Source: Chlorobaculum limnaeum
GTDB lineage: Bacteria; Bacteroidota; Chlorobiia; Chlorobiales; Chlorobiaceae
Reading direction: 5' to 3'
Assembly: GCF_001747405.1 (NCBI RefSeq)
Contig: NZ_CP017305.1
Span: 2,250,001 to 2,314,000 of the forward strand
DNA: 64,000 nt
The notes under the pieces are model-generated. The model was not told the origin of the DNA. It searched no databases and saw only the letters and a program-made list of their open reading frames with translations. The position numbers and the translations under genes are program-made. This document shows positions 1,437-52,798 of the stretch, one piece after another. Every line of letters begins with the position of its first letter. Position 1 is the stretch's first letter.

Positions 1437-1466
1437 GACGCCTGCGATAGTATCCCCGACACGAAT

Positions 1467-1492: not shown

Positions 1493-1503
1493 ACAGTATA
1501 GTC

Positions 1504-1684: not shown

Positions 1685-1787
1685 TACAAGAAAGAGGCTG
1701 TCTCAGAAGCAAAATCAAGACATATTTTGGCATCAGTTCTTCTTCATTACTACGGCAATAATAAATCGCAAAAGCCAGCACAGCAAG

Positions 1788-2035: not shown

Positions 2036-2060
2036 TCAACCCCAGCAATCTCTGCCCAAA

Positions 2061-2492: not shown

Positions 2493-2507
2493 ATGATTGC
2501 GAGATAT

Positions 2508-2890: not shown

Positions 2891-2923
2891 GAATATTCAA
2901 CCCATCAAGCCCCCCACCATCGT

Positions 2924-7014: not shown

Positions 7015-8063
7015 GCCACCTCCCCGTTCCGGCGCTCCACCGCTTCGAGCGCCTGCCTGACGGCTTCACCGACGCGCCGGTCGAGCGGCTCGGCGACATC
7101 CTGCCCGGGCCGTCGCTCATCCGCATTGAGGGCGAGCCGGGGCCGCCGCTCTTCGTATCGATCCTCCTGCATGGCAACGAGACCACCGGCTTCGACGCCA
7201 TGCAACGGCTGCTGGCGGGATACGACGCGCCACGCCGCCTCTTGCCGAGGCCGATGCTGCTCTTCGTGGGCAACGTCGCCGCCGCCGGGCGCGGACTGCG
7301 CAAGCTCGACGGGCAAGCCGACTACAACCGCATCTGGCATGACGAGCGATTTCCGGAGCACCGGCTGGCGCGGGAGGTGCTGGAGGAGGTCACGAGAGCC
7401 ACGCCGCTCGCCGCCATCGACCTGCACAACAACACGGGCAAAAACCCGCACTATGGCTGCGTCAACCGGCTCGACGACGCCACGCTCAGCCTGGCGCGGC
7501 GATTCAGCAGAACCATCGTCTGGTTCACCGAGCCGCACGAGGTGATCTCGATCGCGCTGTCGCGCATCTGCCCCTCGGTGACGCTCGAATGCGGCGTGTC
7601 GGGCAACACCGCCGGGACGAGCCATGTGGAGAACTACCTTCGCCACTGCCTCGAACTGCCCGCCGAAACGCTCTTCACGCCGCCGCCAAACCACCTCAGC
7701 GACCTGTTCCACACCACGGCGCGGATCATCGTGCGCGAGGGCACGAGCGTGGAGTTCGGCGCGGGCGCACAGAGCGCGGATATCTGCCTGCGCGAAGACC
7801 TCGAAAGCCTCAACTTCGAGCGAGTGCCCGAAGGCGCGGAACTGGGATGCTTCCGCAATGGCGCGCTGCCGCTCGTGGTGATCGACAACGAGGAGCGTGA
7901 CGTCACCAGTCGCTACCTTCGCTTCAGCGAAGAGCGGATTTTCACCAAGCTGCCCATCGTCCCCTCGATGTTCACCCGCGACACGCGAGTCATCATGCAG
8001 GACTGCCTCGGCTACATCATGGAGCCGTACGAGGTGAAGCAGGAAAATGATTGCTCCGGCTAA
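7002..8063 (+). CDS. Succinylglutamate desuccinylase/aspartoacylase family zinc hydrolase (M14-like)
   Basis: A 353-residue protein with the AstE/AspA zinc-binding pattern: H57 and E60 in LLHGNETTG and H142 in IDLHNNTG. Family members cleave N-acyl or amide bonds of amino acids. The ATG at 7002 lies inside the preceding amidoligase gene (13-bp overlap), so the two are translationally coupled. The last residues (DCSG-stop) are encoded by the beginning of a dispersed palindromic repeat, so the native stop has been replaced by repeat sequence. Confidence 0.75.
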   Translation: MEPLSHLPVPALHRFERLPDGFTDAPVERLGDILPGPSLIRIEGEPGPPLFVSILLHGNETTGFDAMQRLLAGYDAPRRLLPRPMLLFVGNVAAAGRGLRKLDGQADYNRIWHDERFPEHRLAREVLEEVTRATPLAAIDLHNNTGKNPHYGCVNRLDDATLSLARRFSRTIVWFTEPHEVISIALSRICPSVTLECGVSGNTAGTSHVENYLRHCLELPAETLFTPPPNHLSDLFHTTARIIVREGTSVEFGAGAQSADICLREDLESLNFERVPEGAELGCFRNGALPLVVIDNEERDVTSRYLRFSEERIFTKLPIVPSMFTRDTRVIMQDCLGYIMEPYEVKQENDCSG

Positions 8064-8300
8064 AACTCTTGACAATTGCCCCGGACTTCAGTCCGGGGTA
8101 TGCGAATAAAGCTTAATAAATAAGGGCTTTAGCCCAATTTCTTACTGCGGTTCGTTGCCGGAGTAAGAAGCGGGTGGCCTTTTTTCATCGGGGTCGGAAC
8201 GGGCGCGAATCGAAATCGAAACCCCGGACTGAAGTCCGGGGCAATGGAAATGCAAGCGTTGAATGTCCGAAGGGTTGAAATCCTTCTGAATACCGAAGAT
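8050..8300. repeat. Dispersed palindromic repeats between the M14 gene and the glycosyltransferase
   Basis: One nearly full copy of the common unit (TTGCTCCGGC...CCCCGGACTTCAGTCCGGGG...GGGCTTTAGCCC...GCCGGAGTAAG) is followed by a partial copy with CCCCGGACTGAAGTCCGGGG near 8222 and the GTTGAATGTCCG tail motif. Both convergent genes end inside or next to it. Confidence 0.8.
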
Positions 8301-15944: not shown

Positions 15945-16156
15945 TCGATGTTACATTCAGGAGGGTTTCAACCCGACGGATATTCTGAACTTTTACATTC
16001 ACATTGCCCCGGTTTTCAAACCGGGGAACTTGAGAAGAGCAATCGCCGCCAGGGAAAGATATTGGGCTAAAGCCCTGATTTATTTTGTTTTATCCGCATA
16101 CCCCGGACTGAAGTCCGGGGCAATTGCTTAAGAGTTTTAATGACCGGAGTAAGAAC
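15945..16156. repeat. Dispersed palindromic repeats between lon-like gene and usp
   Basis: A short unit (CATTCAGGAGGGTTTCAACC, CCCCGGTTTTCAAACCGGGG) is followed by a full copy of the common unit (GGGCTAAAGCCC...CCCCGGACTGAAGTCCGGGG...CTTAAGAGTTTTAATGACCGGAGTAA). The unit runs to the very start of the universal stress protein gene and supplies the GGAG in front of its ATG. Confidence 0.8.
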
Positions 16157-16157
16157 G

Positions 16158-16991
16158 ATGACACACCGCATCATCCACTCGATCGCCGTCGCCATCGACT
16201 GCTCGCCGCACAGCAAGGCCTCGCTCGAAGCCGCCGCCGAGATGGCCGCGCGGCTGAAGGCGGAGCTGATCGGCATCTTCGTCGAAGACATCAACCTCCT
16301 TCGCGTGGCGGGCCTGCCCTTCGCCGAGGAGGTGCGGCTTTACAGCTCGACCACCGCGAAGCTCGATACAGCGCAACTCGAACGCCTGCTCAGACTCCAG
16401 GCGGAGCAGGCACGGGAGCTGTTGCGACACACCGCCGAAGCCCGCACGCTCCGACACACCTTCCGCGTGCTGCGGGGCCTGGTTTCCGAGCAGATCATGC
16501 TGGCCGCGCCCGAAGCAGACATGCTCGTGCTTGGCCGAAGCGGACGCTCGCCGTCATGCCGCAAGGGCCTCGGCTCGACGGCCCGCACGGCGCTCCACGA
16601 GTGCAAGATGAACGTGATGCTGATGCGCCCCGGCGTCACCGCCGCCGAAGGGCCGCTCCTGGTGCTCTGCGACGACTCGGAAGCCTCGAAACGCGCCCTC
16701 AGGACAGCGCTCGAAATCGCCGGGCCGACAAGCACGCTGAACCTGCTCGTCACCGATCCCGATCCGGAAGCCATCGGGCACTGCAAACAGGAAACGGATG
16801 CGATGCTGAACGGGCGAACCATCGAAGCAGAATACTACCACATCCCCTTCACCGAAGGCAAGCAACTCGCCAGCTTCATCCGCATGATCGACTCCGGCCT
16901 CGTCGTCATCGGCGAAGGCATGAACCTCCCCGCCGAAACCCTCCGCGAACTGATCGACAACATCGACTACCCGGTGCTGGTGGTGCGGTGA
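16158..16991 (+). CDS. Universal stress protein family, two-domain
   Basis: A 277-residue protein with a UspA-like N-terminal domain (IAVAIDCSPHSKASLEAAAEMAARL, LVLGRSGRSPSCRKGLGSTARTALHECKMNVMLMRP) and a more degenerate second alpha/beta domain (LLVLCDDSEASKRALRTALEIAG). The ATG at 16158 is preferred over an in-frame ATG at 16140, because the latter belongs to the end of a dispersed repeat. A GGAG about 10 bases upstream comes from that repeat. Target and nucleotide binding are unknown. Confidence 0.8.
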   Translation: MTHRIIHSIAVAIDCSPHSKASLEAAAEMAARLKAELIGIFVEDINLLRVAGLPFAEEVRLYSSTTAKLDTAQLERLLRLQAEQARELLRHTAEARTLRHTFRVLRGLVSEQIMLAAPEADMLVLGRSGRSPSCRKGLGSTARTALHECKMNVMLMRPGVTAAEGPLLVLCDDSEASKRALRTALEIAGPTSTLNLLVTDPDPEAIGHCKQETDAMLNGRTIEAEYYHIPFTEGKQLASFIRMIDSGLVVIGEGMNLPAETLRELIDNIDYPVLVVR

Positions 16992-16992
16992 A

Positions 16993-17075
16993 TTATGAGT
17001 TATGAATTATGAATTGAAGAAAAGTCTTCGATAGTGGGCGGGCTCATGCTCCTCTTACCCTTTCGTCCTTTTCGT
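16993..17075. repeat. ~80-bp direct repeat, left copy
   Basis: ATTATGAATTATGAATTGAAGA and the following TGCGATAG/GGGGTCATGCTC-like stretch up to CGTCC recur at 18296-18375. The two copies flank the AhpD-like gene in the same orientation. Their similarity is imperfect but spans the whole block. Confidence 0.6.
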
Positions 17076-17084
17076 CCCTTATTG

Positions 17085-17220
17085 CTCCAGCCATTAAAAC
17101 TCTTAAACAATTGCCCCGTACTTTAGTCCGGGGTATGTGGATAAAACAAAATAAATCAGGGCTTTAGCCCAATATCTTTCAAGAGCGGCAATTGCAATTT
17201 TTTGTTGCCGGAGTAATAAG
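17085..17220. repeat. Dispersed palindromic repeat overlapping the end of the AhpD-like gene
   Basis: A full copy of the common unit (TTGCTCCAGCCATTAAAACTC...CCCGTACTTTAGTCCGGGG...GGGCTTTAGCCC...TTGTTGCCGGAGTAAT). The last ~20 codons of the neighbouring minus-strand gene lie inside it. Confidence 0.8.
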
Positions 17221-24165: not shown

Positions 24166-24933
24166 ATGAACCACCTCGGATTCGACACGGAAAAGCTGAA
24201 AATCGGCTCCTTCGACTTCACCTGCTGCGAAGGCTGCCAGCTCCAGCTCGCCAACAAGGAAGCGACACTGCCTGAGTTCCTCGCGCTGCTCGACATCAGG
24301 AACTTCCGCGAAATCTCCTCGGAGCGGCTCGACGACTACGACATCGCTCTCGTCGAGGGGAGCATCACGCGAAGCGACGAGGTCGAGCGGCTCAAAGCGA
24401 TCCGCGCCCAGGCCAAAGTGCTCGTCGCCTACGGTACCTGCGCCTGCTTCGGGGGCATGAATGCGCAGAAGAACAAGTTCCCGAAAGAGGAGTGCATCCG
24501 CACGGTCTATGGCGACAAGGAGATCGACACGATGCAGGAGTCGCACAAGATCAGCGACTTCGTGACCGTCGATTACTCGATTCCCGGCTGCCCGGTCAAC
24601 AAGGAGGAGGTCGAGCGCATCGTGGTGAGCATCGCCACCCGCTCGCCCATCGGCCTGCCGAAGTACCCGGTGTGCGTGGAGTGCAAGCAGCGGCTCAACA
24701 CCTGCCTGTTCGACCTCGGTGAGGTGTGCCTCGGCCCGATCTCACGCGCGGGTTGCGACGCGGTCTGCCCCTCCGGCAAGACCCCATGCCTCGGCTGCCG
24801 CGGCCCGGCGGACGACATCAACTACGCTTCGTTCACGGATCTGGTGCGCGACAAGGGACTCAGCACGGAGGAGATGAGGGAAAAGCTCGCATTTTACAAC
24901 GGTTTCACAGAGTATCTGAACCATGAAGGTTGA
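24166..24933 (+). CDS. hydD: Sulfhydrogenase delta subunit ([NiFe] hydrogenase small subunit)
   Basis: A 255-residue small subunit carrying the Fe-S relay to the active site. The proximal cluster ligands are [20 protein letters not shown] and PGCPVN; further cysteines follow in [11 protein letters not shown] and [23 protein letters not shown]. There is no Tat signal, consistent with a cytoplasmic group 3 enzyme. The ATG at 24166 is preceded by AAGGA; an in-frame TTG at 24160 is less likely. It overlaps hydA by 11 bp. Confidence 0.9.
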
Positions 24934-26197
24934 TTTCAACATTGACATCCACCACCTGCCGAGGGTCGAGGGGCACGGCGATATTCGCATTTCGGTGAGG
25001 GACGGCAAACTCGCCGACGCCAAATGGGCGGTGGTCGAGACGCCGCGCTTCTTCGAAGTGATGGTCAAGGGACTCAGCGCCGAGCGGGTGCCGTTCCTCA
25101 CCTCGCGCATCTGCGGCATCTGCTCGATCAGCCATTCGCTGGCCAGCATCCGCTCGCTCGAACGCGCCATGCAGATCACGCCGCCCGAAACGGCGCGCGT
25201 CATCCGCCTGCTCGCCATGCACGGCGAAACGCTGCAAAGCCACGCGCTGCACCTCTTCTTCCTCGCCGCGCCGGACTTTGCGGGCACGCCGAGCGTCGTG
25301 CCGCTCTTGCAGTCGCACCCGGAGGTGGTCGAGGCGGGCCTGATGCTCAAGGAGCTTGGCAACGAACTGAGCATCGCTACCTGCGGACGCGCCACGCACC
25401 CGGTCAGCCTCGTGCTTGGCGGCGTCAGCAAGGCCCCGTCGAAGCAGCGCCTCGCCGAAATCAGGCGGATGAATGTCGAACGCCGCGCGATGCTCGACCG
25501 CGCCAGCGACTTTTTCATGACGCTCCGGATTCCGGAGTTCGTGCGCGAAACCGAGTTTATCTCCCTGCGCGACGGCGAGAGCTACCCCTACATCGGCGGC
25601 AACCTCGTCTCGACCGACGGCGTCGTGCGCGACGAGAACGACTATCTGCTGATGACCAACGAATACACGGTCGATTTCTCGACCTCCAAGTTCACGAGAG
25701 TCAGCCGCGAGTCGTCAGCCGCCGGGGCGCTGGCGAGGTTCAACAATAACTTCGACCAGCTCCATCCGCGAGCTAAGGAAGCCGCCGCCGCCTTCGGCCT
25801 CCAGCCGGTCTGCCACAACCCCTTCATGAACAATGTCGCCCAGCTCGTCGAGTGCCACCACATCGTCGCCAGCACCGAAGCGATCATCGACCAACTGCTC
25901 GACGACGATTTGAAGGACATCCGCACCAGCTACAAACCCCGCGCCGGAGCCGCCACCGGAGCCGTCGAAGCGCCGCGAGGCGTACTCTACCACTACATGG
26001 AAACGGATGAGAACGGCAAAGTGGTCAAAGCCGACTGCATCATCCCGACCACGCAGAACAACGCCAACATACACCACGACCTCCACGCCCTCGCCGAACA
26101 GGCGTTGGCCGAAGGCAAGGGGGAAAAAGAGGTTGAAAAGCTCTGTGAAATGCTGGTACGGTCATATGACCCGTGCATTTCGTGTTCGGTGCATTGA
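24923..26197 (+). CDS. hydA: Sulfhydrogenase alpha subunit ([NiFe] hydrogenase large subunit)
   Basis: The catalytic subunit: reversible H2 oxidation or H+ reduction, possibly sulfur or polysulfide reduction. Its 424 residues include the NiFe ligand motifs RICGIC (C64, C67) and DPCISCSVH (C418, C421). The N-terminal [12 protein letters not shown] is canonical. The protein stops exactly at the terminal His of DPCxxCxxH, so there is no C-terminal peptide for a maturation endopeptidase to remove. It is last in the hydBGDA operon. No hyp maturation genes are in the window. Confidence 0.93.
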
Positions 26198-26224
26198 GTC
26201 ATTCAAGATAAAATGACGGATATA

Positions 26225-26326
26225 CGTCATCGCGAGTCCCGACCTGTCGGGACGTGGCGATCCATCTTGAACGGCCTACACTGATCCCGCATGGATTGCC
26301 ACGCCGCTTTGCGGCTCGCAATGACG
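26225..26326. repeat. Dispersed inverted repeat, CGTCATCGCGAG...CTCGCAATGACG
   Basis: About 100 bp with imperfect inverted ends and internal GGCGATCCAT/ATGGATTGCC pairing. A second, partial copy (CGTCATCGCGAGGCCCGAC...GGCGATCCAT) lies at 26368-26411. It is a non-coding intergenic element family. Confidence 0.7.
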
Positions 26327-26404
26327 AAAAAAACATTGATATGAAATCAGAACACACAGCACTCCCTCGTCATCGCGAGGCCCGACTTGTCGGGATGTGG
26401 CGAT

Positions 26405-26552
26405 CCATATTTATTACTCCGGCGATTAAAACTCTTCAAAATAGCCCCGGACTTCAGTCCGGGGTATGCGGATAACGCAAAATAAATCCGGGCTTTAGCC
26501 CAATCTCTTCTTGGGGGTGCTTTTGCGATTCATTGTCGCCGGAGTAATAAGG
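26405..26552. repeat. Dispersed palindromic repeat (common unit)
   Basis: A full copy: ATTACTCCGGCGATTAAAACTC, CCCCGGACTTCAGTCCGGGG, GGGCTTTAGCCC, ending CGCCGGAGTAATAAGG. With the neighbouring inverted repeats and the element at 26611-26844, it explains the gene-free stretch 26198-26937. Confidence 0.8.
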
Positions 26553-26610
26553 AATGTTTGCCATTGACACAACAATAGCGGTCTGACGATTTTCCGATGA
26601 TCGACGCCAT

Positions 26611-26844
26611 AAAGAGGCTGTCTTTAATGCCAGAGTGAGTCGTTATTTTGTGCTTTTCTGTTTGTTTTTCCTGTCATTCTGAGTCCGACGCAGTCGGGCG
26701 AAGAATCCAGAAAAGTCACGTAAGGCGCTATAAATTCAACGGTTATAGGCGAATTTGGAAACTGGATTCTTCACTGCGTTCAGAATGACAACCAAAAAAG
26801 GACTCAATTTGACGTAATCGGGTAACTTTTAAGACGGCCTCTTT
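26611..26844. mobile_element. MITE-like element with AAAGAGGCTGTCTT terminal inverted repeats
   Basis: The left end AAAGAGGCTGTCTT and right end AAGACGGCCTCTTT are inverted with one mismatch. They enclose 234 bp that contain copy 2 of the TGTCATTCTGA palindrome (26672-26790). There is no coding capacity. A single-ended remnant of the same terminus occurs at 1691. No target-site duplication is evident. Confidence 0.55.
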
Positions 26845-26846
26845 GG

Positions 26847-27013
26847 CGTTTCTGGGGCTGGATGAAAACGGAAATCCTGCGGCAAAATCCCGCCAATTGT
26901 TTGCTATGCGGTACAAGTTATTTACATTCATATAAATGTGTTAGCTGAAGTACAAGGTAGATTCACCTTTTCCCCACAGCAAATGCCTCACGCAAGCACT
27001 TACATACAGAACG
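26847..27013 (+). pseudogene. Fragment: leader and 5' end of the Xer-like recombinase gene
   Basis: Matches the reverse complement of about 51095-51262, including the leader segment TTGTTTGCTAT.CGGTACAA and TTACATTCATATAAATGTG. The coding start MLAEVQG.FTFSPQQMPHAST is identical except at one residue. Homology stops at about 27013; the frame then runs on for about 50 unrelated codons to a stop at 27169-27171. It is therefore a truncated second copy of the recombinase gene start, facing the opposite way to the longer copy. Confidence 0.85.
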
Positions 27014-27199
27014 CACTCCTTGAATTTTCGAGTGAAATGCCGCTGCTGTCAGGCGATTGCCGGTGCCGCGATTGGGATTTCTCGGTTTTTGATGGAGGGA
27101 TTGGCCCGATGCTAAAGAACTTTAGCATATTGAAAAGCAAGTTGGATGCAAGTATTGAGAACATAGACTGAAAGTAATAGACAATTAAAAAAAAGTCAA

Positions 27200-28915
27200 A
27201 TTTACCTATCCAATATAAAACTCTGGAATTTTAGAAAATTCGGTTCAGATAGCGAATTTGATTTAGATCATCCGAATTTAAATTTAAACCTAAAAAAAGG
27301 TTTGAATGTAATTATTGGTGAAAATGATTCGGGAAAAACAGCCATTATTGATGCTGTAAAACTTGTACTTAAGACGCATAGTTATGAATATATAAGAGTA
27401 GAAGATAAAGACTTTTACGATAGAGCTGAACGTTTCAGAATAGAATTGACTTTTGAGGGGCTGACCCCCGATGAAGGCAAAAACTTTACAGAATGGCTGG
27501 GTTGGACAGGGGCAGGTGAAAATGTAAAACCATTTTTAAAATTGAATTATGATGTAAAACGTAAAATAGATAAGATTTTGCCAAGTGATGTAAAAGCTGG
27601 AGTTGATGAAGACGGTTATTTGCTTACGGCTGAAGCTAAGGAGTATCTGAAAGTAACATATTTAAAGCCTTTACGTGATGCCGAAAACGAGCTGATTGCA
27701 AAACGCAATTCTAGGTTGTCTCAAATTCTTTTGGGGGATGAGGCGTTTAAAGGTAAAGAAAAAGATAATGATTTGGTGCAAATCTTTTCAGATTTAAAAG
27801 GAAAGTTGGAGAAATTTTTTAACGAAAATGATGAGGATGGACACCCTAAAGTAGGTAAAAAAATTAAAGATAAGATTGATGGTTACATAAAAACCTTTTA
27901 CGGAAAAGATTGTGAAACAGAATTTGAAGCGTCGGGAAACGACATCAAAAGCATTCTTGAAAAACTAACGTTGTATTTGAAAGACGAACCGAATCCTGGC
28001 TTAGGAACGTTGAATCGTTTATTTATGGCTGCCGAATTGCTTCACTTAAGTAAATCAAATTGGAGTGGTTTGCGTTTGGGTTTAGTTGAAGAATTGGAAG
28101 CACATTTACACCCACAATCACAAATGCAAGTGATTGAAGCGCTTCAAAAACTTGATAAAATTCAACTCATTCTTACGACACATAGCCCGAATTTAGCGTC
28201 TAAACTCAATCTTGAAAACCTAATTATATGTAATAATGCTAATGCTTTTCCTATGGGCGAAGCGTATACCAAATTAGAGAAAGATAATTACAAGTTTTTA
28301 GAAAAGTTCTTGGATACTACAAAGGCAAATTTGTTTTTTGCCAAAGGTGTGATTTTGGTGGAAGGTTGGGCCGAAGAAATTCTAATTCCGAGCATTGCAA
28401 AAGCAATAGGAATCAATTTGACAGAAAAAGGTGTTTCAGTTGTAAATATTGGCCATACAGGTTTTGATCATTACTCAAAGATTTACTTACGCAAAGAAGA
28501 GCCTCATATGACAATCCCTGTTGCGGTAATCACAGATTCAGACATTAGAGAATATGAAAAGAACGGAGATAATTACATCAAAAAAGATGATCAGACAGTT
28601 AAGCAGGAAACAGTACGTAAAATAGGAGAGATTGACGGTAAAGCTGCACAAAATGTCAAATACTTTCCTGCGTCGAATTGGACTTTAGAATATTCATTAT
28701 TTAAGTCAACGAGATTGAGTATAGTGTTTCAAAACGCAGCAAAAGCCGTTCATACACGAACAGATTGGGATGCTGATTTTGAGAAGTCACTTGCAAAAAA
28801 GCTTATCAACAAAGGGTTAAAAAAGACCGAAATTGCTTATCATATTGCAAACGCAATTGATGAAGATTTGAAAAAAAGAAGAACCGACTATATCAATTTT
28901 AGGGGATGCTGCTGA
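27200..28915 (+). CDS. gajA: OLD-family ATP-dependent endonuclease (GajA-like), damaged ends
   Basis: An ABC-type ATPase with a C-terminal TOPRIM nuclease domain, as in Gabija GajA. Visible are Walker A IIGENDSGKTAIIDA, the signature-like GLRLGLVEELEAHLHPQS with downstream LILTTHSPNL, and TOPRIM motifs GVILVEGWAEE and AVITDSD. The normal N-terminal strand (LSNIKLWNFRKFGS) lies upstream of the first usual start codon, a TTG at 27302. No ATG or GTG exists in this frame, so 27200 (ATT) is only a proposed start. Near 28906 the frame shifts, and the expected tail (DAADAVNYLVNAIKYATGD) continues in another frame to 28964. Very AT-rich; followed by a UvrD-like gene. Confidence 0.75.
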   Translation: MYLSNIKLWNFRKFGSDSEFDLDHPNLNLNLKKGLNVIIGENDSGKTAIIDAVKLVLKTHSYEYIRVEDKDFYDRAERFRIELTFEGLTPDEGKNFTEWLGWTGAGENVKPFLKLNYDVKRKIDKILPSDVKAGVDEDGYLLTAEAKEYLKVTYLKPLRDAENELIAKRNSRLSQILLGDEAFKGKEKDNDLVQIFSDLKGKLEKFFNENDEDGHPKVGKKIKDKIDGYIKTFYGKDCETEFEASGNDIKSILEKLTLYLKDEPNPGLGTLNRLFMAAELLHLSKSNWSGLRLGLVEELEAHLHPQSQMQVIEALQKLDKIQLILTTHSPNLASKLNLENLIICNNANAFPMGEAYTKLEKDNYKFLEKFLDTTKANLFFAKGVILVEGWAEEILIPSIAKAIGINLTEKGVSVVNIGHTGFDHYSKIYLRKEEPHMTIPVAVITDSDIREYEKNGDNYIKKDDQTVKQETVRKIGEIDGKAAQNVKYFPASNWTLEYSLFKSTRLSIVFQNAAKAVHTRTDWDADFEKSLAKKLINKGLKKTEIAYHIANAIDEDLKKRRTDYINFRGCC

Positions 28916-28935
28916 CGCAGTTAATTACCTTGTAA

Positions 28936-30981
28936 ATGCGATTAAATATGCCACAGGAGATTAAAATAACAAATGAAGAAATTCAATATGCAGAGCAATT
29001 GCTTTTGCCTATTGGTAAGACGTTTGATGCAGAGCGAAGAGATTTTATTCGGAATTTCAATACAATAGATTTACAAGCTGTTCCAGGGGGTGGAAAAACA
29101 ACAGCTTTACTTGCAAAGTTGCTGATTTTAGAACGTAAACTCCCATTTGGCACCGGTTCAGGTATTTTGGTTTTATCGCACACCAATGCAGCCATTGATG
29201 AGATAAAAGAGAAAATTCAAGCGTATTGCCCGAGACTATTTTCATATCCAAATTTTATTGGAACAATACAGAGTTTTGTTGACATTTTTTTAGCTATTCC
29301 GTTTTATATTTCAAAGTATAAGAAAAAACCAATACGGATAGATAATGAGATTTACGACGAAAAGATAAAAGCTTGTGTTGACAAAATTTGGTTACATAGA
29401 TTTAACTTAAGTAATGATACTAATAAGAAAGTTGCTCATATCAAAAATAACAATGAGGGGTTGTTTTATGACGTCAGATTTCAGTTTTCAAATGGAATTA
29501 GGTTAGTTAAAAAGTTAAACGGTGATGTTCTGGAAATCAAAAAACCACGAGGAAATGCCCGAAATTATTGTGATTATTCACAGCAGGAAAAACAGGAAGT
29601 GTGTAGATGGTTTCTAGAATTTAAAAAAACAATATTAAAATCAGGTATTTTACACTTTGATGATGCTTATTTTTTAGCTGATGTTTATTTGAATAAAATA
29701 CCCGGGATAAAAACTATTTTGCAAAAACGCTTCGCTTTTGTTTTTGTAGATGAAATGCAGGATATGGACACGCATCAGTACAATTTGCTGGAAAACATTT
29801 TTTATGATGAGGGAAACAGTGTTTCAAAAATTCAAAGAATTGGTGATAAAAATCAAGCAATCTATAATTCAGTAAAAGCAACAGATATTTGGCAAGACAG
29901 ACCAGAAATTTTAAGACTTAACGGAAGTCAGCGATTAAGTAAACCAATCGCAGATATAGTGAAAAAATTTGCCTTGTACAACGATGATACATTTGATATT
30001 GTCGGACGAAATGAATGTACCATAAAACCGCATATTTTGGTTTTTGAAAATGACACAATTGAAAAAATCATTCCCCTTTTTGCTCAAATTGTAAGAAAAA
30101 ATAATTTAGCCAATTCTGAAAAGCCGATCAAAGTTGTTTGCTGGAATACAGAGTGGAGTGACGATGCTGATCTCCAAGATACCACGAAACTGCGTTTAGA
30201 AGACTATTACAAAGGCTTCAAAAAAGAAAAAGGAAAACCAAAGCAAGATTACGATAACCTGAAAAGTTATTTGTTGTACTACGAGAAAAAGCAAACCTTA
30301 GAATCTTTGCGTAAGAATATATTGAACGCTTTCCTTAAAATTTTGCGTTTGGAAAATATCAATACAACAGACGACAGATCTTACACAAAGAAAAAGTTGA
30401 TTGACTTTATTTACAACACAGACGTTCAGAAGTATGATGAATTGAATTTGAATCTTTACAAGTGGTCAATCGGAATAACTCAAGAAAAAACTAACGAAGT
30501 TTGGAGCAGTATAAAAGCATATACACCTACTCTGCTTGCAATTTTTAATAAAACCATTTCAGAAAGTTTAGATTTTATCAATAATGCCAGCAGGGATATG
30601 CGGGTCGAAAAAACCGAAAATTTAGCATTAACAAATCATTACATAGAGGACGGACTTAAAATTGAGATTACAAGCGTTCATGCAGTAAAAGGGCAAACGC
30701 ATTGTGCGACATTATATTTGGAATCATTTTATAAAAAAGGATATGGGAACTATGAATCTGAGCGACTACGAAATCAGTTTGTTGGAGCACAAACGGTAAC
30801 AGAAACATTGGCTACTGTCAAAAATAGTCATGACTTAATAAAGCAATCAACGAAAATGGCTTACGTTGGTTTCTCTCGCCCAACAGATTTGCTTTGTATT
30901 GCAGTACATAAGGAAAGATTCGAAAAATTACTGAGTGATATAAATAGAGACGAGTGGGAAATAATAGAAGTTAAAAAATGA
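28936..30981 (+). CDS. gajB: UvrD/PcrA-like helicase (GajB-like)
   Basis: A 681-residue superfamily 1 helicase-like protein. Walker A is AVPGGGKTT (residues 48-56), motif Ia-like VLSHTNAAIDEI, Walker B FVFVDEMQDMD, motif III-like RIGDKNQAIYN, and late motifs SVHAVKGQTH and KMAYVGFSRP. The pairing with an OLD nuclease just upstream is the Gabija anti-phage arrangement, in which GajB senses nucleotide or DNA state and works with GajA to cut phage DNA. It is longer than the prototype GajB (~490 residues). An alternative ATG lies at 28948. The start overlaps the predicted unshifted end of gajA. Confidence 0.8.
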   Translation: MRLNMPQEIKITNEEIQYAEQLLLPIGKTFDAERRDFIRNFNTIDLQAVPGGGKTTALLAKLLILERKLPFGTGSGILVLSHTNAAIDEIKEKIQAYCPRLFSYPNFIGTIQSFVDIFLAIPFYISKYKKKPIRIDNEIYDEKIKACVDKIWLHRFNLSNDTNKKVAHIKNNNEGLFYDVRFQFSNGIRLVKKLNGDVLEIKKPRGNARNYCDYSQQEKQEVCRWFLEFKKTILKSGILHFDDAYFLADVYLNKIPGIKTILQKRFAFVFVDEMQDMDTHQYNLLENIFYDEGNSVSKIQRIGDKNQAIYNSVKATDIWQDRPEILRLNGSQRLSKPIADIVKKFALYNDDTFDIVGRNECTIKPHILVFENDTIEKIIPLFAQIVRKNNLANSEKPIKVVCWNTEWSDDADLQDTTKLRLEDYYKGFKKEKGKPKQDYDNLKSYLLYYEKKQTLESLRKNILNAFLKILRLENINTTDDRSYTKKKLIDFIYNTDVQKYDELNLNLYKWSIGITQEKTNEVWSSIKAYTPTLLAIFNKTISESLDFINNASRDMRVEKTENLALTNHYIEDGLKIEITSVHAVKGQTHCATLYLESFYKKGYGNYESERLRNQFVGAQTVTETLATVKNSHDLIKQSTKMAYVGFSRPTDLLCIAVHKERFEKLLSDINRDEWEIIEVKK

Positions 30982-31066
30982 AGATCGCTGAGCTGCGCAA
31001 GTAGAGGCCAATGGGCAGCAAAAGGGAAACAACGGAAAGAAAAAAAGAATCCCCAACTGGTTAATA

Positions 31067-31152
31067 TTACAAGCTATGCAGGTGTTCCAGCAGGTTGCTG
31101 TTGAAGATGGCGGGCTGGTCGAGGTTCTAGAGGTGGGCTGCTTCGGGAATCC
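31067..31152 (-). pseudogene. Fragment: 3' end of an alpha/beta hydrolase gene
   Basis: Aligns without gaps to the last ~84 bases of the hydrolase gene at 43570-44340: minus-strand reading IPEAAHL-stop-NLDQPAIFNSNLLEHLHSL against IPEAGHLSNLDQPAMFNGILLEHLRSL. A TCG serine codon has become TAG. Third-position differences show a diverged rather than recent copy. Half of the hydrolase's terminator (CCCCAACTGGTT) follows at about 31051. Confidence 0.8.
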
Positions 31153-31226
31153 GTGCGAGCCACGTAACTCCAGATGTCGAAAATATCATTTTCGGCATCC
31201 GCGCTCAGAAACACGTGGTATTTCAT
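31074..31226 (-). pseudogene. Truncated ParE/RelE-type toxin
   Basis: The ATG at 31226 overlaps the antitoxin stop by 4 bp. The first ~24 residues (MKYHVFLSADAENDIFDIWSYVAR) match ParE/RelE toxins. After that the reading runs into the hydrolase 3' fragment in another frame and stops at 50 residues. The toxin core and active residues are lost, so it is a remnant. Confidence 0.7.
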
Positions 31227-31507
31227 GAACCACGCTTTTCATCGATACGTTTTTTGATCGCATCGAACGCTTCTCCGGCAGGTTTGTACTCTCCACGTTC
31301 GATGCTCGCCGTAGACTGCGCCAGCATCTTGAGCAGCGCGAGACTTTCCTGCGTCTGCTCATAAGCATGGATGTCCTGCACGATCACCTTCGCCTCGCCG
31401 TGATCCGTGATGATCATGGGTTCCCTGTTACTGCACACATCCCGGACAACCTCGGCGGCATGAGTTTTCAGGTAACTGATGGGCTTGATCGAGTCACGGT
31501 ATTTCAT
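31223..31507 (-). CDS. Phd/YefM-type antitoxin
   Basis: A 94-residue antitoxin: ISYLKTHAAEVVRDVCSNREPMIITDHGEAKVIVQDIHAYEQ is the Phd/YefM DNA-binding domain, followed by a helical tail that would wrap the toxin. The gene is intact, but its toxin (4-bp overlap) is truncated, leaving an orphan antitoxin. In complete pairs the antitoxin represses its own operon. Confidence 0.85.
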   Translation of the reverse strand: MKYRDSIKPISYLKTHAAEVVRDVCSNREPMIITDHGEAKVIVQDIHAYEQTQESLALLKMLAQSTASIERGEYKPAGEAFDAIKKRIDEKRGS

Positions 31508-31591
31508 GGGTCGCTCCAGATTTTAACCGCCATTCTGTCTGAATGATACTCATTTTTCGGCAACAGTCCATCAACCGATCCGACCGCTCTC

Positions 31592-43569: not shown

Positions 43570-44340
43570 ATGCTGACCTTCACTGGAGCGGCTGGCGGAG
43601 ACGCCGGTAACGTGTTGCTTCTGCACGCTTTCCCGGTTTCGGCGGAGATGTGGGAGCCGCAACTCGCCCCGCTCGCCGAGTCGGGCTACCGGGTCATCGC
43701 CCCGTACGTCTATGGCTTCGACAGTTCGCCGTCGCGCCCCGGCTGGAGCATGGACGATTACGCCCGCGACCTCGCCCGCCTCATCGAAGCACTCGGCTGG
43801 TCAAGCGCGACTGTGGTGGGCCTCTCGATGGGCGGCTACCAGGCGCTGGCATTTTACCGGCTCTACCCGGAGCTGATCGATTCGCTGGTGCTTTGCGACA
43901 CGCGGGCCAACGCCGATTCGCCGGAGGTGCTGGCCGGGCGGCAGCAGTTCAGAAATGCGGTGATGGAGAAGGGATCGGAGGAGGCCACCGCGAGGATGGT
44001 TCCGAACTTTTTCGCGAAGGAGACCTACGCCTCGAACCAGCCGCTCGTCGAGAAAACGCGGGAGAGCATCGTCCGCCAAGCGCCGGAGGAGATCAGCGAA
44101 GCGATGCGGGCCATCGCCGAGCGGAAGGATTCGACGGAGCTCTTGACCGAGATCGCCTGCCCGACGCTCATCGTCAACGGCATGGAGGACACCGTCACCA
44201 CGCAGGAAGTCGCCGCCAAAATGCACGCCCTGATTCCCGGCTCAAAGCTCGAACTGATCCCCGAAGCCGGCCACCTCTCGAACCTCGACCAACCCGCGAT
44301 GTTTAATGGAATATTGCTGGAGCATTTGCGGAGCTTGTAA
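43570..44340 (+). CDS. Alpha/beta hydrolase
   Basis: A 256-residue alpha/beta hydrolase: LLLHAFPVSAEMW (oxyanion region), nucleophile elbow VGLSMGGY (S86), acid NGMEDTV, and base histidine in PEAGHLSNLDQP. It is similar to 3-oxoadipate enol-lactonase and esterase-like proteins; the substrate is unknown. Its 3' end is the boundary of the integron-like array, and a diverged copy of that end is found at 31067-31152. Confidence 0.88.
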   Translation: MLTFTGAAGGDAGNVLLLHAFPVSAEMWEPQLAPLAESGYRVIAPYVYGFDSSPSRPGWSMDDYARDLARLIEALGWSSATVVGLSMGGYQALAFYRLYPELIDSLVLCDTRANADSPEVLAGRQQFRNAVMEKGSEEATARMVPNFFAKETYASNQPLVEKTRESIVRQAPEEISEAMRAIAERKDSTELLTEIACPTLIVNGMEDTVTTQEVAAKMHALIPGSKLELIPEAGHLSNLDQPAMFNGILLEHLRSL

Positions 44341-44397: not shown

Positions 44398-44440
44398 CTT
44401 GTATAACGAACATTCTCACGCTAAAAAAACTTATTTTTTA

Positions 44441-44571
44441 TAACGGTCGGGGCTATGCGACGCTGGGGAAATCGAAGCTACTTTCTTATCAACATGCACA
44501 AAGTTATAAAAAGATGTACATTTGACGTAACCACTTAAACCCCAGTGGCGTATGAGCCCTTGTTATGCACC
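44441..44571 (-). other. attC-like site A (end of cassette 2)
   Basis: A ~131-bp imperfect palindrome: GGGGCTATGCGACGCTGGGG pairs with CCCCAGTGGCGTATGAGCCC across a ~70-nt centre. On the minus strand it begins GGTGCATAAC and ends with a CGTTATA core. The stop codon (TAA) of the preceding gene lies inside the GGTGCATAAC box, as in integron cassettes. That box is the exact inverse of GTTATGCACC at the front of the same cassette (48527-48536). Confidence 0.7.
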
Positions 44572-45234
44572 GTTTTTCTTTTTTCCATTTATAATATCAC
44601 TCAATTTATCTTTATAATCACTCAATAAACTATTAACGTACTTCATTGAGTCAAATAGTTCCTGATACTTGTCATATTGTGCTTGTATATCCTGTGGAGT
44701 CTTTCTTTTGTTCTCTTCTAATTCTAAAGCTTCATTATACCATTTTCTAAACTTTGCCTGATATTCTGTTAGATGAGGTCTTAATCCTTCGTTAAGAATG
44801 TCAGTTAAAAGTTTTATTAAATCTTTTGATTCATTATTTTCTAAGAGCATTACGCCTGTAAGTTTCTTTAACTCGTCTCTTGTTATTTGAAATAATGAAT
44901 ACCAAGAATTGTAAACTTCTACAATTACATCATTGTTCTCAATCGGGAGAGCTGCTTTTCTAGTAATCATCTCTATATATATTCTATGAGCAATTTCAAT
45001 ATTTTGATAATTACGGTTTATTGCATATTCAACTTCAGCTCCTCCAATTTTGTATTTAAGTTTTATCGAAACCACCTCATTGTGAACATTGTTCGATTTA
45101 ATATAGCGTTTTATTAAAAATCGAATAAGGAAGAATAACGCAATTCCAATTAACAAAATCCAAATATTCAGAATGAGAGAAAATGTTCCCTCACACAAAT
45201 TGAATTTAAAATCTATAATATTAATTTCATTCAT
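44563..45234 (-). CDS. Single-pass membrane protein, candidate effector of TIR operon
   Basis: A 223-residue protein with one strong N-terminal transmembrane segment (ILNIWILLIGIALFFLIRFLIKRYI, about 22-47), then a soluble helical domain with a C-terminal coiled-coil-like stretch (LELEENKRKTPQDIQAQYDKYQELFDSMKYV). I recognise no family. It overlaps the TIR gene upstream by 8 bp, so it is co-translated with it, and it is last in the four-gene operon. Its place suggests a membrane-acting effector triggered by a TIR signal; this is inference. The stop codon lies in attC-like site A. Confidence 0.7.
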   Translation of the reverse strand: MNEINIIDFKFNLCEGTFSLILNIWILLIGIALFFLIRFLIKRYIKSNNVHNEVVSIKLKYKIGGAEVEYAINRNYQNIEIAHRIYIEMITRKAALPIENNDVIVEVYNSWYSLFQITRDELKKLTGVMLLENNESKDLIKLLTDILNEGLRPHLTEYQAKFRKWYNEALELEENKRKTPQDIQAQYDKYQELFDSMKYVNSLLSDYKDKLSDIINGKKKNGA

Positions 45235-45769
45235 ACCAACGGTCTCCTGTTCTATTATCTACAAATGAAGAAAAAGAATTATCTGGAATAACTTTATCCC
45301 TATTCAAAAATGCTTCATGAATCCAACTCTGAACAATATGTGGATTTGTGTTCCAATTATATAGTTTTGCAAATCCTTTTTCCCAAATTTTATAAAGTCT
45401 TGGTGGAATTGTGTAGGGATTAAATTTATTGTCAGATGTAATAGGATAACTTGGCAAAAAGATACCTAACAGTCCTGAACGTGGATTTAATCTTGTGTCA
45501 CGAATGCATGAACCAATTTCCCAATCAACATGTTTTCTCTGCCATGTTTGAGTTCCAATAAGGACTACTGTTACAGTTGAATCTCTTAAGTATTCATCTC
45601 TAATCTTTTGACGTATTGTTTCAGCATTCAGATTGGAATCAATTTCGCCAATTTGAACAGATTTTGAAACCATTATATCATAATGATTTGCAAAAAGCCC
45701 TTCAAATAAATTCCTATAATGTTGGTCATTAGCGTGATGATAGCTAACAAATACTTTGTGACGTTGCAT
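45227..45769 (-). CDS. TIR-like (MTH538/DUF1863) protein, ThsB-like
   Basis: A 180-residue protein with the DUF1863 TIR-like fold used by Thoeris ThsB: KVFVSYHHANDQHYRNLFEGLF at the start, VTVVLIGTQTWQRKHVDWEIGSCI in the centre with the conserved Glu E84, and GLLGIFLPSYP. ThsB proteins sense phage and make a cyclic ADP-ribose-type signal from NAD+. No ThsA (SIR2/SLOG or macro-domain) is nearby; instead a membrane protein follows. AT-rich, unlike the core genome. Confidence 0.85.
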   Translation of the reverse strand: MQRHKVFVSYHHANDQHYRNLFEGLFANHYDIMVSKSVQIGEIDSNLNAETIRQKIRDEYLRDSTVTVVLIGTQTWQRKHVDWEIGSCIRDTRLNPRSGLLGIFLPSYPITSDNKFNPYTIPPRLYKIWEKGFAKLYNWNTNPHIVQSWIHEAFLNRDKVIPDNSFSSFVDNRTGDRWYE

Positions 45770-45773
45770 AAAC

Positions 45774-46299
45774 TTATGATTTACTTATATTTATATTCAG
45801 AAAACTTGGAATTGGTAAATTGTCCCTGTCCAATATTTTAGCTAAAGGGAGCAATAAATCTTCATACCTATTCATATCTTCCAGACTATTATTAAATCGG
45901 TCAACCCCTTTTAACGATTTAAGAAAAGAAAAAAAATCATTTCTAGTTCGAATAATATTATCAATCCTTAAATAGTCTGGTAAATTTGCTTCGATAATAC
46001 TTTTATGCCTTAATGCAAATATTTTCACACTATCAAAAGCATAAGCATAACCTAATTCAAACGGCACCCATTTTGAATTAAGCGAATTATCTGAAGCAAT
46101 ACAAATCATAAAATCAGAACCTTGTATTCCCTTTTTTATAGCTGCAACAACTTTTTGAGGATCTTTTTTTCCATCAACTGATTGCAAATTCATATCGTTT
46201 TTATCAAGAAAAACTTCAATCTTATGTAAATCCAAGAAGTTAGCAATAACTTCTGCGTACTCAATGTCATTATTTTGGTAACTTATAAAAAACTTTCAT
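45774..46299 (-). pseudogene. TIR domain protein, frameshifted at its N-terminus (T6 run)
   Basis: From the ATG at 46299 the reading MKVF continues into TIR sequence only if one T is removed from the six-T run at 46287-46292. Then KVFISYQNNDIEYAEVIANF joins the long open frame LDLHKIEVFLDKND...SDFMICIASDNSLNSKWVPFELGYAYAF, with the catalytic Glu in WVPFELGYA. The corrected protein is ~174 residues. The shift could be a sequencing error, phase variation or inactivation. It lies 4 bp before the ThsB-like gene. Confidence 0.75.
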
Positions 46300-46350: not shown

Positions 46351-48327
46351 TTATTTCCAGTTTCGGAAAGATTTATTAAACCACCTAATCGTGAAGGCAT
46401 AAAAATAAATCGTGGAGCTTTTTCGAATTACATTATTTTCACCAACTCTCATTTTTGTTTCAATATCCTTTATTGTGCCTAAGTTTTCATGTTCTGGTTT
46501 GCTGAAATTCAACAATTTTTCAATTTCATTTTCTAAATCATTCAATTTTTCTTCAATATTTTTTTCTGATTTATTGATTGGCTTTTGCAATAAAACAGTC
46601 TCCCAGAACTCGTTTGAAAAAACTTCATCTCCTAAATAATCCTTACCAAATAAATAGTCAATTAATTCATTTTCGTTAATTAAATTTGACGTGCTTTCAG
46701 GCATATAATTCATTTGTTGTCTGAACATTGATTGATAATACTCCTTATTCTCTTTACTAAGTTTGCCTGTTTTTACTTGCAGTTTTAATTCAGAAAAGTG
46801 TTCCTTAATATTTGTTTCAATTTGCATCAAAGCATCTTGATCTTTTAGTACCTCGCTTACCTGCTCTTCGTTCAATCCTTGTTGCAATAACATATATGGC
46901 AACATTTTCTTGAAAATCGTTTTAATATATTCTTCTATTGCCAAAGCACTATCAGTCTCTGTACTCCATAAAATTCTGTTCATTAGCCTTAAAGACTTAA
47001 CTGATTCATATCCCATTCCACCTGGAGAACAATTAGATTGTATTCGAGCAATTCGTTTTGCAATTTTATCACTTATTGCAAGTGGTTTTATTTCTTTTAC
47101 ACAGTCTGTAACCGGATTATATAGCAATAATTTTCTTGGTTTTTTGTTATTTCTTTTATCAATATTTTGATGCAGTAAGTATGAATAAACTAACAATTCA
47201 CCACGAGTCCACCATGAATCTAAATAATCATCAGAACCATAAATCCATAATTCATCGCAGTGCATTATATAATCATGGTCAATAATTGTAAGCAATTGCC
47301 AAATACGTTGTTTGGTATTTAATTCTGTGGCATAAACTAAACTTCCATCTTCAAGGTATTTTGCAGTCTTAGATTCGCTGTTGTGATAAATACCTTCTTT
47401 TAAATCCAAGGATAATTGTTTTACAGATTTTTTATAGTTTGCAGGAAGATGTAAAAACTCAGCACAATCCATTATGTAGGATTTGTATTTATTATAATCA
47501 TTTCCAAGTATCCTTTGTATTGCCTTTTGAAAATCATTAGTATCAGTGTCAAATGCATTATTTGAAATTTCTCTTAATTTATTCAATATATGTTCTGGAA
47601 CAAAGGATTTCAGATGGTCAAAAGATTTTTTTACAAGTCGAATAGATTTCTGATATTGATATTTGGTTTTGAAACTTATAAAAATTGAAGTCTCTTGATT
47701 TTTATTATTATATACATGGTCTATTGATTCTTCCATGTATTTGTAAAAACCATTTATAGTGTCTTTATCACCTGATAAAAACTTTTTTATGTCGGGTTTA
47801 TTTGTCTTTCTTGGCTCTAAAGCTATTTGATTTTGTTGTTTGTTTTCTGAGTTCAGAATAAGTTTTTTTTCTAACCAATCAATAATTTGTTGATTGGTAA
47901 AAATATTTGTCTTATAATCGGGATAACCTCCATTATCTGTACCATAAAAATTAATAGGTAAATAGTTTCTACTAACAACTAGAATGTGTTCCAAAGATTT
48001 TGGATGTTCATTTGCAATATCAAAATTATTTATTTCATTGTTTTCACCTTCTCTTGTTGCATCAATTATCACAATATCATCAGATAAACAAGCCTCAAAA
48101 AAATCCATTTGTCCAATCTCTTGAACAAATCGGTTATATATTTTAAGTAGTAAACCTACTTTAGATAGTTGTTCTATTTCTTTTTCAAATGCATAATCAA
48201 CAGAATGGTTTTTGTATTCATTAACTGGTAATGAATACTTACGCATTAGTAAAATGATTATTTCGTTAATAAGCTCAATGCTTGTTTCGCTCTTTATAGG
48301 AAATATTGCAATACTATATTCTTTCAT
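46351..48327 (-). CDS. Large protein with TIR-like segments, first gene of the TIR operon
   Basis: A 658-residue protein of no family I can name. The N-terminal ~170 residues form an alpha/beta domain (ACLSDDIVIIDATREGENNE, SLEHILVVSRNYLPI). The middle has SIFISFKTKYQYQKSIRLVKK and HCDELWIYGSDDYLDSWWTRGELLVYSYL, which resemble the first strand and the acidic catalytic region of TIR domains. The C-terminal third is helical and charged. It is very AT-rich. It is followed by the frameshifted TIR, the ThsB-like TIR and a membrane protein with gaps of 51 bp or less, all on the minus strand inside one cassette. Confidence 0.6.
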   Translation of the reverse strand: MKEYSIAIFPIKSETSIELINEIIILLMRKYSLPVNEYKNHSVDYAFEKEIEQLSKVGLLLKIYNRFVQEIGQMDFFEACLSDDIVIIDATREGENNEINNFDIANEHPKSLEHILVVSRNYLPINFYGTDNGGYPDYKTNIFTNQQIIDWLEKKLILNSENKQQNQIALEPRKTNKPDIKKFLSGDKDTINGFYKYMEESIDHVYNNKNQETSIFISFKTKYQYQKSIRLVKKSFDHLKSFVPEHILNKLREISNNAFDTDTNDFQKAIQRILGNDYNKYKSYIMDCAEFLHLPANYKKSVKQLSLDLKEGIYHNSESKTAKYLEDGSLVYATELNTKQRIWQLLTIIDHDYIMHCDELWIYGSDDYLDSWWTRGELLVYSYLLHQNIDKRNNKKPRKLLLYNPVTDCVKEIKPLAISDKIAKRIARIQSNCSPGGMGYESVKSLRLMNRILWSTETDSALAIEEYIKTIFKKMLPYMLLQQGLNEEQVSEVLKDQDALMQIETNIKEHFSELKLQVKTGKLSKENKEYYQSMFRQQMNYMPESTSNLINENELIDYLFGKDYLGDEVFSNEFWETVLLQKPINKSEKNIEEKLNDLENEIEKLLNFSKPEHENLGTIKDIETKMRVGENNVIRKSSTIYFYAFTIRWFNKSFRNWK

Positions 48328-48526: not shown

Positions 48527-48662
48527 GGTGCATAACGTTGGCGGTATGGCCAGTAAGGGATTGCGGAACTACGTTCCTATCAACCGAGATGAAAGATTGA
48601 TGCGGGTGATGAACTTCGCATACCCCTGAAGCCCTTATTGGCTATACCGCGTGTTGCATGCA
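48527..48662 (-). other. attC-like site B (junction of cassettes 1 and 2)
   Basis: A 136-bp imperfect palindrome: GCGGTATGGCCAGTAAGGG pairs with CCCTTATTGGCTATACCGC. The outer box on one side (GTTGCATGCA, plus strand 48653-48662) is the exact inverse of TGCATGCAAC at 49879-49888, the front of cassette 1. The other box (GGTGCATAAC, 48527-48536) is the front of cassette 2 and inverse to 44562-44571. Additional CGTTAG/CTAACG pairs at 48358 and 48406 may be older sites. The site with its AT-rich leader fills 48328-48670. Confidence 0.7.
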
Positions 48663-49878: not shown

Positions 49879-49988
49879 TGCATGCAACTTGTTTATAAGC
49901 GCTACTCTATAGCGCCTTACATGCCATATTGGATGAATAAGCGCTACAAAGTATCGTGTTATTGTCCGGCACACTCTTGGTGCAGTTA
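49879..49988 (-). other. attI-like region between recombinase and first cassette
   Basis: Lies between the recombinase stop and cassette 1. It contains the cassette-front core GTTGCATGCA (minus strand, 49888-49879), an AGCGCTA/TAGCGC hairpin, and two direct copies of ATAAGCGCTAC at 49895 and 49937. Direct repeats beside a core site recall integron attI sites. The function is inferred from position and pattern. Confidence 0.5.
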
Positions 49989-51170
49989 TTATAAATCATC
50001 GAATGGGCTTTTAATCTGCTGTAAACTTTTTTTGCTGACATGGGTATAGATTTCGGTGGTTTTGCTGCTTTTGTGTCCGAGAAGTTCCTGAATATACCTG
50101 AGATCAGTTCCCGACTCCAGCAGATGGGTGGCATTACTGTGACGTAACCAGTGCAGCGTTACCGGTTTGGTGATATGAGCTTTTTTCAACGCATGGTCCA
50201 ATACCTGTTCAAGACTTCTTGCGCTGTATTGGGTATCGGGGAATTGCCCTTCGAAAAGCCATTGCTTTGGCTTGCAGGCCGTGTAGTACTCCCGCAGCAT
50301 ACCAATCAGCTTGTTTGACATTGGCACCACCCTGTCTTTGTGGCCCTTGGCATCTTATATGATGAGAAGTCCACGTTTTGAATCTACATGCTCGAATCTG
50401 AGGTTCAACAGTTCACTACGTCTGAGTCCACAGGCGTAGATCAGGCTGAGCATCGTTCGGTGTTTCAGATTTGTGGGTGCTTCCAGAATCTCTTTTACCT
50501 CCTCTTTGCTCAGCACATTCGGCAGTTTGTGCTGTGAACGAGGACGTTGCAGGTTTTCGGGCGAGAGCGTTGCGTCATGGATAACTCTGAAAAAAAGCTT
50601 TGCCTCATTAACTACCTGATTTTGATATGCAAAACTCAGTCCATTGGGCAGGATGTATTCGTTTACAAAACGCACCATATCCTCGCTGGTTATCTCGTTG
50701 GCTTGTTTCGGACTGACGAATCTCAGGAATACTTCGAGAACCTGCAGGTAGGTTTTGACCGTAGAATCGCTATAGCGCTTGTGCAGAAGCCACTGCCTGA
50801 ACGTATGAAGCTCTTTCGACAGCGTGGTCTGTATTATAGTCTTTTGCTGAGCAGATGTGGTTCTGTTGCATCGGGTTGCCGGGTGCTTTTCTCTGAAAGC
50901 AGAATAATCTACCCAGGCTTTGCCCTTGAACTGCTTGAGCATCAGATCGATCACCTCGTCAGATTCAGGAATATGCCAACGGTTACAACTGCTACTCCAG
51001 CGTGCGCCCTTTAGCTGCTTCACCTCGGCAGTCAGGGCTTCATCGTATGGAAACTCAAGCGCCACCCGCTTTTCACCCCTGTGCTCGAAGGGCGTAATCC
51101 GTATGATGGTGCTTGCGTGAGGCATTTGCTGTGGGGAAAAGGTGAAACTACCTTGTACTTCAGCCAACAC
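49989..51170 (-). pseudogene. Xer-like tyrosine recombinase with in-frame TAA
   Basis: One continuous frame of 393 codons interrupted by a single TAA (50355-50357), between RGLLII and [13 protein letters not shown], where Lys would fit. The layout is an unusual N-terminal domain of ~90 residues (VALEFPYDEALTAEVKQLKGARWSSSCNRWHIP), a SAM-like core-binding domain (TFRQWLLHKRYSDSTVKTYLQVLEVFLRFV), and a catalytic domain with [35 protein letters not shown] and TEIYTHV (nucleophile Tyr). It lacks the extra IntI-specific patch. Without readthrough the catalytic HxxR and Tyr are lost. A homologous 5' fragment lies at 26847. Confidence 0.85.
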
Positions 51171-52457: not shown

Positions 52458-52585
52458 TCCACCCTTTCCTTTCGATTGTTCGTAGTGCGCAGCGAACATC
52501 CTGTGAATTCCGAAACAAGCTGCCCCCTGAAATCTAATCAACATTCGCGCTCCGTCAAAAACGCCGGAAAGTCCCCCTGGAAACG

Positions 52586-52620
52586 CAAAAAACCCCAACC
52601 AGTCTGCACCAGTTGGGGTT
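52586..52620 (-). terminator. Terminator-like palindrome downstream of aroA
   Basis: AACCCCAAC/GTTGGGGTT, a perfect 9-bp stem, is followed on the minus strand by a T-run (TTTTTTGCG). It is nearly identical to the sequence around 51279-51309, 1.3 kb away. Confidence 0.75.
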
Positions 52621-52664
52621 TCACCTTGTTTATTCCGGCGGCGATAACTTATGAAAGTCACCAG

Positions 52665-52798
52665 AACAAGAAATTGGGCTAAAGCCCTGATTTATTTTGT
52701 TTTATCCATCAACCCCGGACTGAAGTCCGGGGCAACTGGAGAAAATGCAAGCATTGAATGTCCGTCGTCCCGAAAGCTTTCGGGATTCCTGAATATCA
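52665..52798. repeat. Dispersed palindromic repeat next to aroA
   Basis: GAAATTGGGCTAAAGCCCTGATTTATTTTG..., CCCCGGACTGAAGTCCGGGG, then the tail CAAGCATTGAATGTCCGTCG and CCCGAAAGCTTTCGGG. It runs to within a few bases of the aroA stop. With the terminator at 52586 it accounts for the gene-free 52458-52802. Confidence 0.8.

Follow-up and report, generated by a model that had tools for sequence, protein, structure and literature searches.

Our analyses suggest that the Gabija defence pair of Chlorobaculum limnaeum is, quite probably, the cargo of a recombinase-less, integron-like mini-platform that was filled and then locked in the manner proposed below. The pair lies in the window (the whole stretch of 64,000 nucleotides that was analysed), which comes from a single-contig genome of 2.80 Mb labelled G000 in our genome comparisons. 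This reading draws on the anatomy of the platforms, the orthology of the locus between species, an empty site, the att sites and a phylum-wide association of those sites with a recombinase, all of which were observed directly.

Relative to empty sites in two related genomes (G034 and G010), the whole insertion occupies 26198..31573. Its conserved left border is a gene (24923..26197, plus strand) that we take to be hydrogenase-subunit-like, a name read from the translation rather than from a family search, and that has orthologues in G032, G006, G034, G010, G002 and G040. A MITE-like repeat containing repeat D7 (26594..26841) adjoins the leader just upstream, as the sequence-only reading had proposed in invoking a repeat insertion, and is absent in G032, where the equivalents of 26593 and 26842 are only 8 bp apart. 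Other interspersed repeat families lie in the window at 1338-3085, 8044-8292, 15982-17217, 26225-26554 and 52573-52768, many of them with CCCCGGACTTCAGTCCGGGG-type palindromes. From 26842 to 27017 the sequence aligns to the reverse complement of 51281-51089 with a score of 193, where the highest of 200 shuffles reached 31, so that the match to a leader and recombinase start previously placed at 26847-27013 is real and far above shuffled scores; the accompanying description of a leader plus some 22 codons was sound in kind and too short in extent, since the genus's other platforms remain homologous as far as about 27153. The element at 26842..27153 (plus strand) is thus a mini-platform with the leader, the first recombinase codons (relic start codon ATG 26983), an internal deletion and a relic of the recombinase 3' end, the middle being missing.

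Downstream of this element, 27154..27199 (plus strand) marks the junction where attI is expected and absent: other copies run into attI after AAAAGCC..GTTGGATG, and this one does not. The cargo itself has the composition of known Gabija systems, with gajA (27200..28915, plus strand; OLD nuclease/ATPase with AAA and OLD-Toprim domains) beside gajB (28936..30981, plus strand), an open frame for a UvrD-like helicase, and both Pfam and PADLOC support the assignment (PADLOC E about 1e-223 for gajA; PDLC00146, E=1.1e-276, for gajB), in agreement with the pair first read between the two matches. Its G+C content is 33.6%, against surroundings near 60%. Beyond gajB, 30982..31066 (plus strand) corresponds to the distal right flank of the platform, with attC and the proximal flank deleted by comparison with L036 ...CTGATCGCAGAACTGC..., and the attC covariance model found no match at the locus, this segment included. 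The last 31 codons of an alpha/beta hydrolase, with an in-frame stop, follow at 31067..31160 (minus strand) and align to the reverse complement of 44340-44247, the final 31 codons of the hydrolase there, at 78% identity (score 83, best shuffle 28), which removes chance as the source of a similarity earlier read at 31067-31152. The fragment is cut by a toxin-antitoxin remnant (31161..31573, minus strand) with an antitoxin-like ORF at 31223-31507. The order of parts is inverted relative to the 44.3-51.2 kb platform, as first described.

In contrast to known Gabija systems, gajA here has ATT at its start position where the Segatella copri homologue has ATG, a C-terminal frameshift and an integron-like setting. 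The frameshift (+1, within an A7 run around 28871) removes the native C-terminus compared with the same homologue and may be a sequencing error. No Gabija relatives of this GajA were found in the class at E<=1e-30, and its nearest plasmid relative, at 47%, is from Segatella copri. With attI and attC gone and gajA frameshifted and lacking a normal start, the Gabija system at this locus appears locked in and probably impaired.

The second platform in the window (44-51 kb; platform 1) retains the parts that the Gabija locus has lost. Its intact hydrolase (43570..44340, plus strand) borders an array whose right end is an attC-like site (44438..44570, minus strand; model R1, 115.5 bits), with another inside the array (48530..48661, minus strand; model R1, 110.5 bits; DNA fold z=-2.7). 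An attI-like site at the recombinase 3' end (49888..49985, minus strand; crossover ...AAACAAG|TTGC) belongs to a block found in some 20 platforms, and the adjoining gene (49989..51125, minus strand) encodes a Xer-like recombinase without the IntI patch that has an in-frame TAA near 50355 and intact orthologues in G008 and G024. This TAA, together with the absence of attI and attC at the Gabija locus, suggests that the platforms of this genome are probably frozen. One cassette protein of this array (46351-48327, 658 aa) has no Pfam, PADLOC or NCBIfam match and adjoins two TIR/ThsB-like genes (45227-46235).

Comparison of cassette boundaries revealed that unrelated cargos begin exactly at ...ACAAG|TTR after attI, that arrays at the hydrolase end finish in ...CGTTATAA followed by the common flank, and that hairpins of about 130 nt lie between attI and that array end. 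Candidate attC sites were chosen for their length and their position at boundaries, and covariation then served as the test: nine hairpins yielded a common 17-pair stem with compensatory change in 15 of the 17 pairs and a covariation of 0.788, against 0.191 for shuffles (0/500 as high) and at most 0.167 for slid controls. One stem position is A.C in all nine, in 23 of 26 genus matches and, outside the genus, in 110 of 114 sites, whose neighbouring pairs are 97-99% paired; alignments A2 and A3 lean towards the structure of the model because they were fitted to it. Run on the whole genome, the covariance model found exactly four attC sites, two of them outside its training set, all downstream of leader copies and on the same strand; across the genus loci 26/26 attC sites lie downstream of leaders, most of these loci having been fetched because a leader was present. 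Individually, two of the sites (G032 and G036) fold no better than shuffles, and a generic AAC...GTT hairpin scan was rejected as sole detector because it was too noisy, shuffles scoring as high. Defence content was marked, with 319 PADLOC families matched by 73 cargo proteins against 18 by 66 upstream controls, counts of families and not of independent systems. With attI beside the recombinase gene, a G|TT crossover inferred from cassette boundaries and cassettes that end in folded attC sites, the platforms are integron-like as judged by anatomy.

The same interval in other species indicates that the locus is orthologous in three of them (G000, G006 and G032). In G032 both flanks, the leader and the hydrolase fragment are the same as here and the cargo is different (L036:3654-7297), namely a TmtA-like GHKL/Hsp90-like ATPase of 856 aa and a 358-aa protein, presumably AlbA/Schlafen-like from our reading of its sequence, for which PADLOC gave no match; 31067-31589, including the toxin-antitoxin remnant, is common to both genomes at 94.5%. 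In G006 these flanks recur, split between two contigs, with a hydrolase piece of 228 nt that abuts the equivalent of 31557 and no toxin-antitoxin remnant; the 94-nt hydrolase end here marks a later toxin-antitoxin junction. Elsewhere the interval is empty (the equivalents of 26193/26195 and 31574 lie 32 and 21 bp apart in G034 and G010) or holds unrelated genes (G002 and G040). In G002 (L170:6792-11761) these are Dcm-like methylase, histidine-kinase-like, response-regulator-like and Vsr-like genes, with no platform; the gene names in G002 and G040 are our own presumptive readings. Such different, empty and unrelated contents across species mark the interval as a hotspot and the Gabija platform (platform 2) as an old insertion. 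The 94-nt hydrolase pieces from G000 and G032 cluster with G038 and G036 hydrolases (86-89% identity to G038), a placement of short fragments with moderate support that is consistent with a source other than the present G000 lineage, as had been supposed of a piece from a related strain. The suggested inversion of 27-51 kb between strains was not seen: the order hydrogenase, zinc-ribbon gene, hydrolase and leader is the same in G002, G008, G010, G014 and G016.

These comparisons also bear on a possible, if rather unlikely, alternative in which cargo is swapped by homologous recombination between common flanks (the leader at one end, the hydrolase end plus terminator at the opposite one), leaving the att sites as relics. 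Over its last 94 nt the G006 platform-2 fragment matches the G006 hydrolase at 93.6% identity and shares its terminator, and over the full 228 nt the identity is 86.8%, as gene conversion would give, and its end does look converted from that hydrolase. Against this, cassettes with unrelated cargo start exactly at G|TT after attI and attC stems keep strong covariation, although both processes can operate. Cassette entry of the Gabija pair itself must be read from G006 and G032 because the locus keeps neither attI nor attC, and we infer from them that the pair arrived here as an attC cassette. Platform 1 of G006 (L115:7011-11143) carries a different Gabija pair with an attC-like site 6 bp after gajB.

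Turning to the enzyme, more than 500 relatives of the recombinase were found in genome contigs, and the 80 loci that were kept are nearly all from Bacteroidota. The attC model gave 93 matches over these loci (E<=1e-3), all on the recombinase strand and 91 of them downstream, in a search that covered 417 kb upstream and 221 kb downstream. In 58/64 loci the stop codon is followed, at a spacing of about 96 nt, by an attI core that resembles ATAAACAAGTT, compared with 2/62 control windows and 7/64 shuffled sequences. Best solved-structure matches of the recombinase are Xer proteins, and the region corresponding to the IntI patch spans 58-59 residues in all family members, against 65 in Xer and 100 in IntI, in a comparison that includes the IntI4 alignment; the family is therefore not an IntI-type integrase with patch and I2 helix. 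Among 247 phylum genomes, R1-type attC sites occur in 35 of 38 with the recombinase against 86 of 209 without a strict match to it (odds ratio 16.7, p=1.8e-9). The latter group counts against our explanation, as does canonical IntI, which could act on some of these sites.

That canonical integron integrases move the cassettes in trans, with the patch-less recombinase doing another job and the mini-platforms being ordinary CALINs, we consider improbable. True IntI does occur in 70/247 phylum-sample genomes and, within the genus, in G024 and G040, where it coexists with the patch-less system; yet G000 has no IntI over the cut-off, attC presence tracks the patch-less recombinase and shows no association with IntI (p=0.17 in the same 247 genomes), attI follows the patch-less gene at a constant spacing, and attC sites share an invariant mismatch. 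IntI was rejected as driver of these attC sites on that lack of association, and no R1-type attC was found in the short loci around the IntI genes of G024 and G040. Nor does the Gabija locus fall under the CALIN definition of at least two attC sites with no integrase nearby, as it has zero attC; other recombinase-less mini-platforms have one to three attC sites plus attI.

The origin of the mini-platforms can be followed through their leader. This 222-bp sequence has 40 matches in 12 of 21 genus genomes, five of them in G000, and most copies consist of the leader, first recombinase codons, a deletion, last recombinase codons and then the conserved attI-like block. No shared right end or target duplication was seen in the listed flanks of the mini-platforms, and direct repeats at both ends are no general feature. 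In a tree of leaders, the one at the Gabija locus clusters with its counterparts from this locus in G006 and G032, beside recombinase-less mini-platforms, and the 51-kb leader groups with recombinase-bearing copies. From this placement the recombinase truncation predates the Gabija locus and is common to dozens of copies, which does not support the idea of a later truncation at this locus; the locus belongs to the genus's roughly 40 dispersed recombinase-less mini-platforms and is not a decayed copy of the platform at 51 kb. The earlier view of a second, decayed version of the same defence platform thus holds for the kind of element, for the hydrolase 3' end as a passenger and for the decay, and fails for descent from a broken 51-kb recombinase platform.

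Mere duplication of the platform at 51 kb, with acquisition from a related strain, subsequent truncation and no special recombination system, would account for the inverted matching ends, the hydrolase fragment nearest to other species and the adjacent repeat insertion; we nonetheless regard it as very improbable, given a leader placed in a recombinase-less clade of three species, an identical truncation in dozens of copies and att sites that bound cargo elsewhere. The leader ORF varies to the same degree at all three codon positions (0.328, 0.322 and 0.325), so protein-coding constraint was rejected and conservation of the leader acts on DNA or RNA, not on protein, which together with its roughly 40 dispersed copies would suit a MITE-like or regulatory element fused to defence genes by chance and without att function, a highly unlikely reading because attC occurs only downstream of leaders and attI sits at the element's end.

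We instead propose an integron-like, recombinase-less mini-platform with the following history. The intact system would comprise a leader with a likely promoter, which may drive cargo expression, a Xer-related patch-less tyrosine recombinase and, about 96 nt beyond the stop codon of its gene, attI; defence-gene cassettes would enter at attI (G|TT), bringing an attC hairpin at their 3' end, in an insertion presumably catalysed by this recombinase. Internal deletion of the recombinase would then have produced mini-platforms of leader and attI that dispersed and could presumably be filled in trans. Platform 2, with the hydrolase 3' end as passenger, would have entered the interval between the hydrogenase and zinc-ribbon genes in an ancestor shared by three species or more, and its cargo would have been exchanged later, for the TmtA-like ATPase and AlbA/Schlafen-like gene in G032 and for Gabija in G000. 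In G000 the attI end and attC would then have been deleted and gajA would have been left without a normal start codon or its native C-terminus, so that Gabija would be locked in and probably impaired.

Among known systems, integrons (IntI, including reverse-oriented chromosomal integrons) and the CALIN and In0 classes of IntegronFinder share attI beside the integrase, G|TT, attC-ended cassette arrays and integrase-less derivatives with the platforms described here. The differences are that this recombinase lacks the IntI patch and I2 helix (59 vs 100 residues), that mismatches in the attC stem are symmetric, with an invariant A.C among them, in place of the extrahelical bases of canonical sites, that cassettes hold multi-gene defence operons, and that the derivatives keep leader and attI, unlike CALINs with attC only. 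XerA, XerC and XerD likewise lack the IntI patch, whereas the family here has its own attI at a fixed place, attC arrays downstream and, in many members, an N-terminal extension. The system thus appears to work like an integron while being non-canonical by the patch. We found no description of it in the open papers searched.

A related observation in the same phylum is the homology-independent capture of aph(3')-IVb in Riemerella anatipestifer with a 140-bp attC-like 3' segment (PMC13148043), which resembles the present system in an attC-like hairpin after the gene and insertion without flank homology, and differs in that no recombinase was identified there. The patch-less recombinase may be the missing enzyme of that gene capture, a suggestion offered as a lead only. 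On the prevailing view, it was the I2 helix that gave integron integrases single-strand attC recombination; the authors behind this view point to a chicken-and-egg problem between I2 and attC (PMC4792948) and to a lack of intermediates (PMC7790495). We judge it likely that Bacteroidota and green sulfur bacteria harbour a second kind of integron, in which a Xer-like recombinase that never had or has lost the I2 helix recognises attC hairpins by their invariant A.C mismatch and, within the genus, shuttles entire anti-phage operons, Gabija among them, to dispersed integrase-less docks. A widespread attI and attC system without I2 would make the question of how I2 and attC originated directly testable, and integron-like platforms of this kind would explain how defence operons gather and are exchanged in this group.
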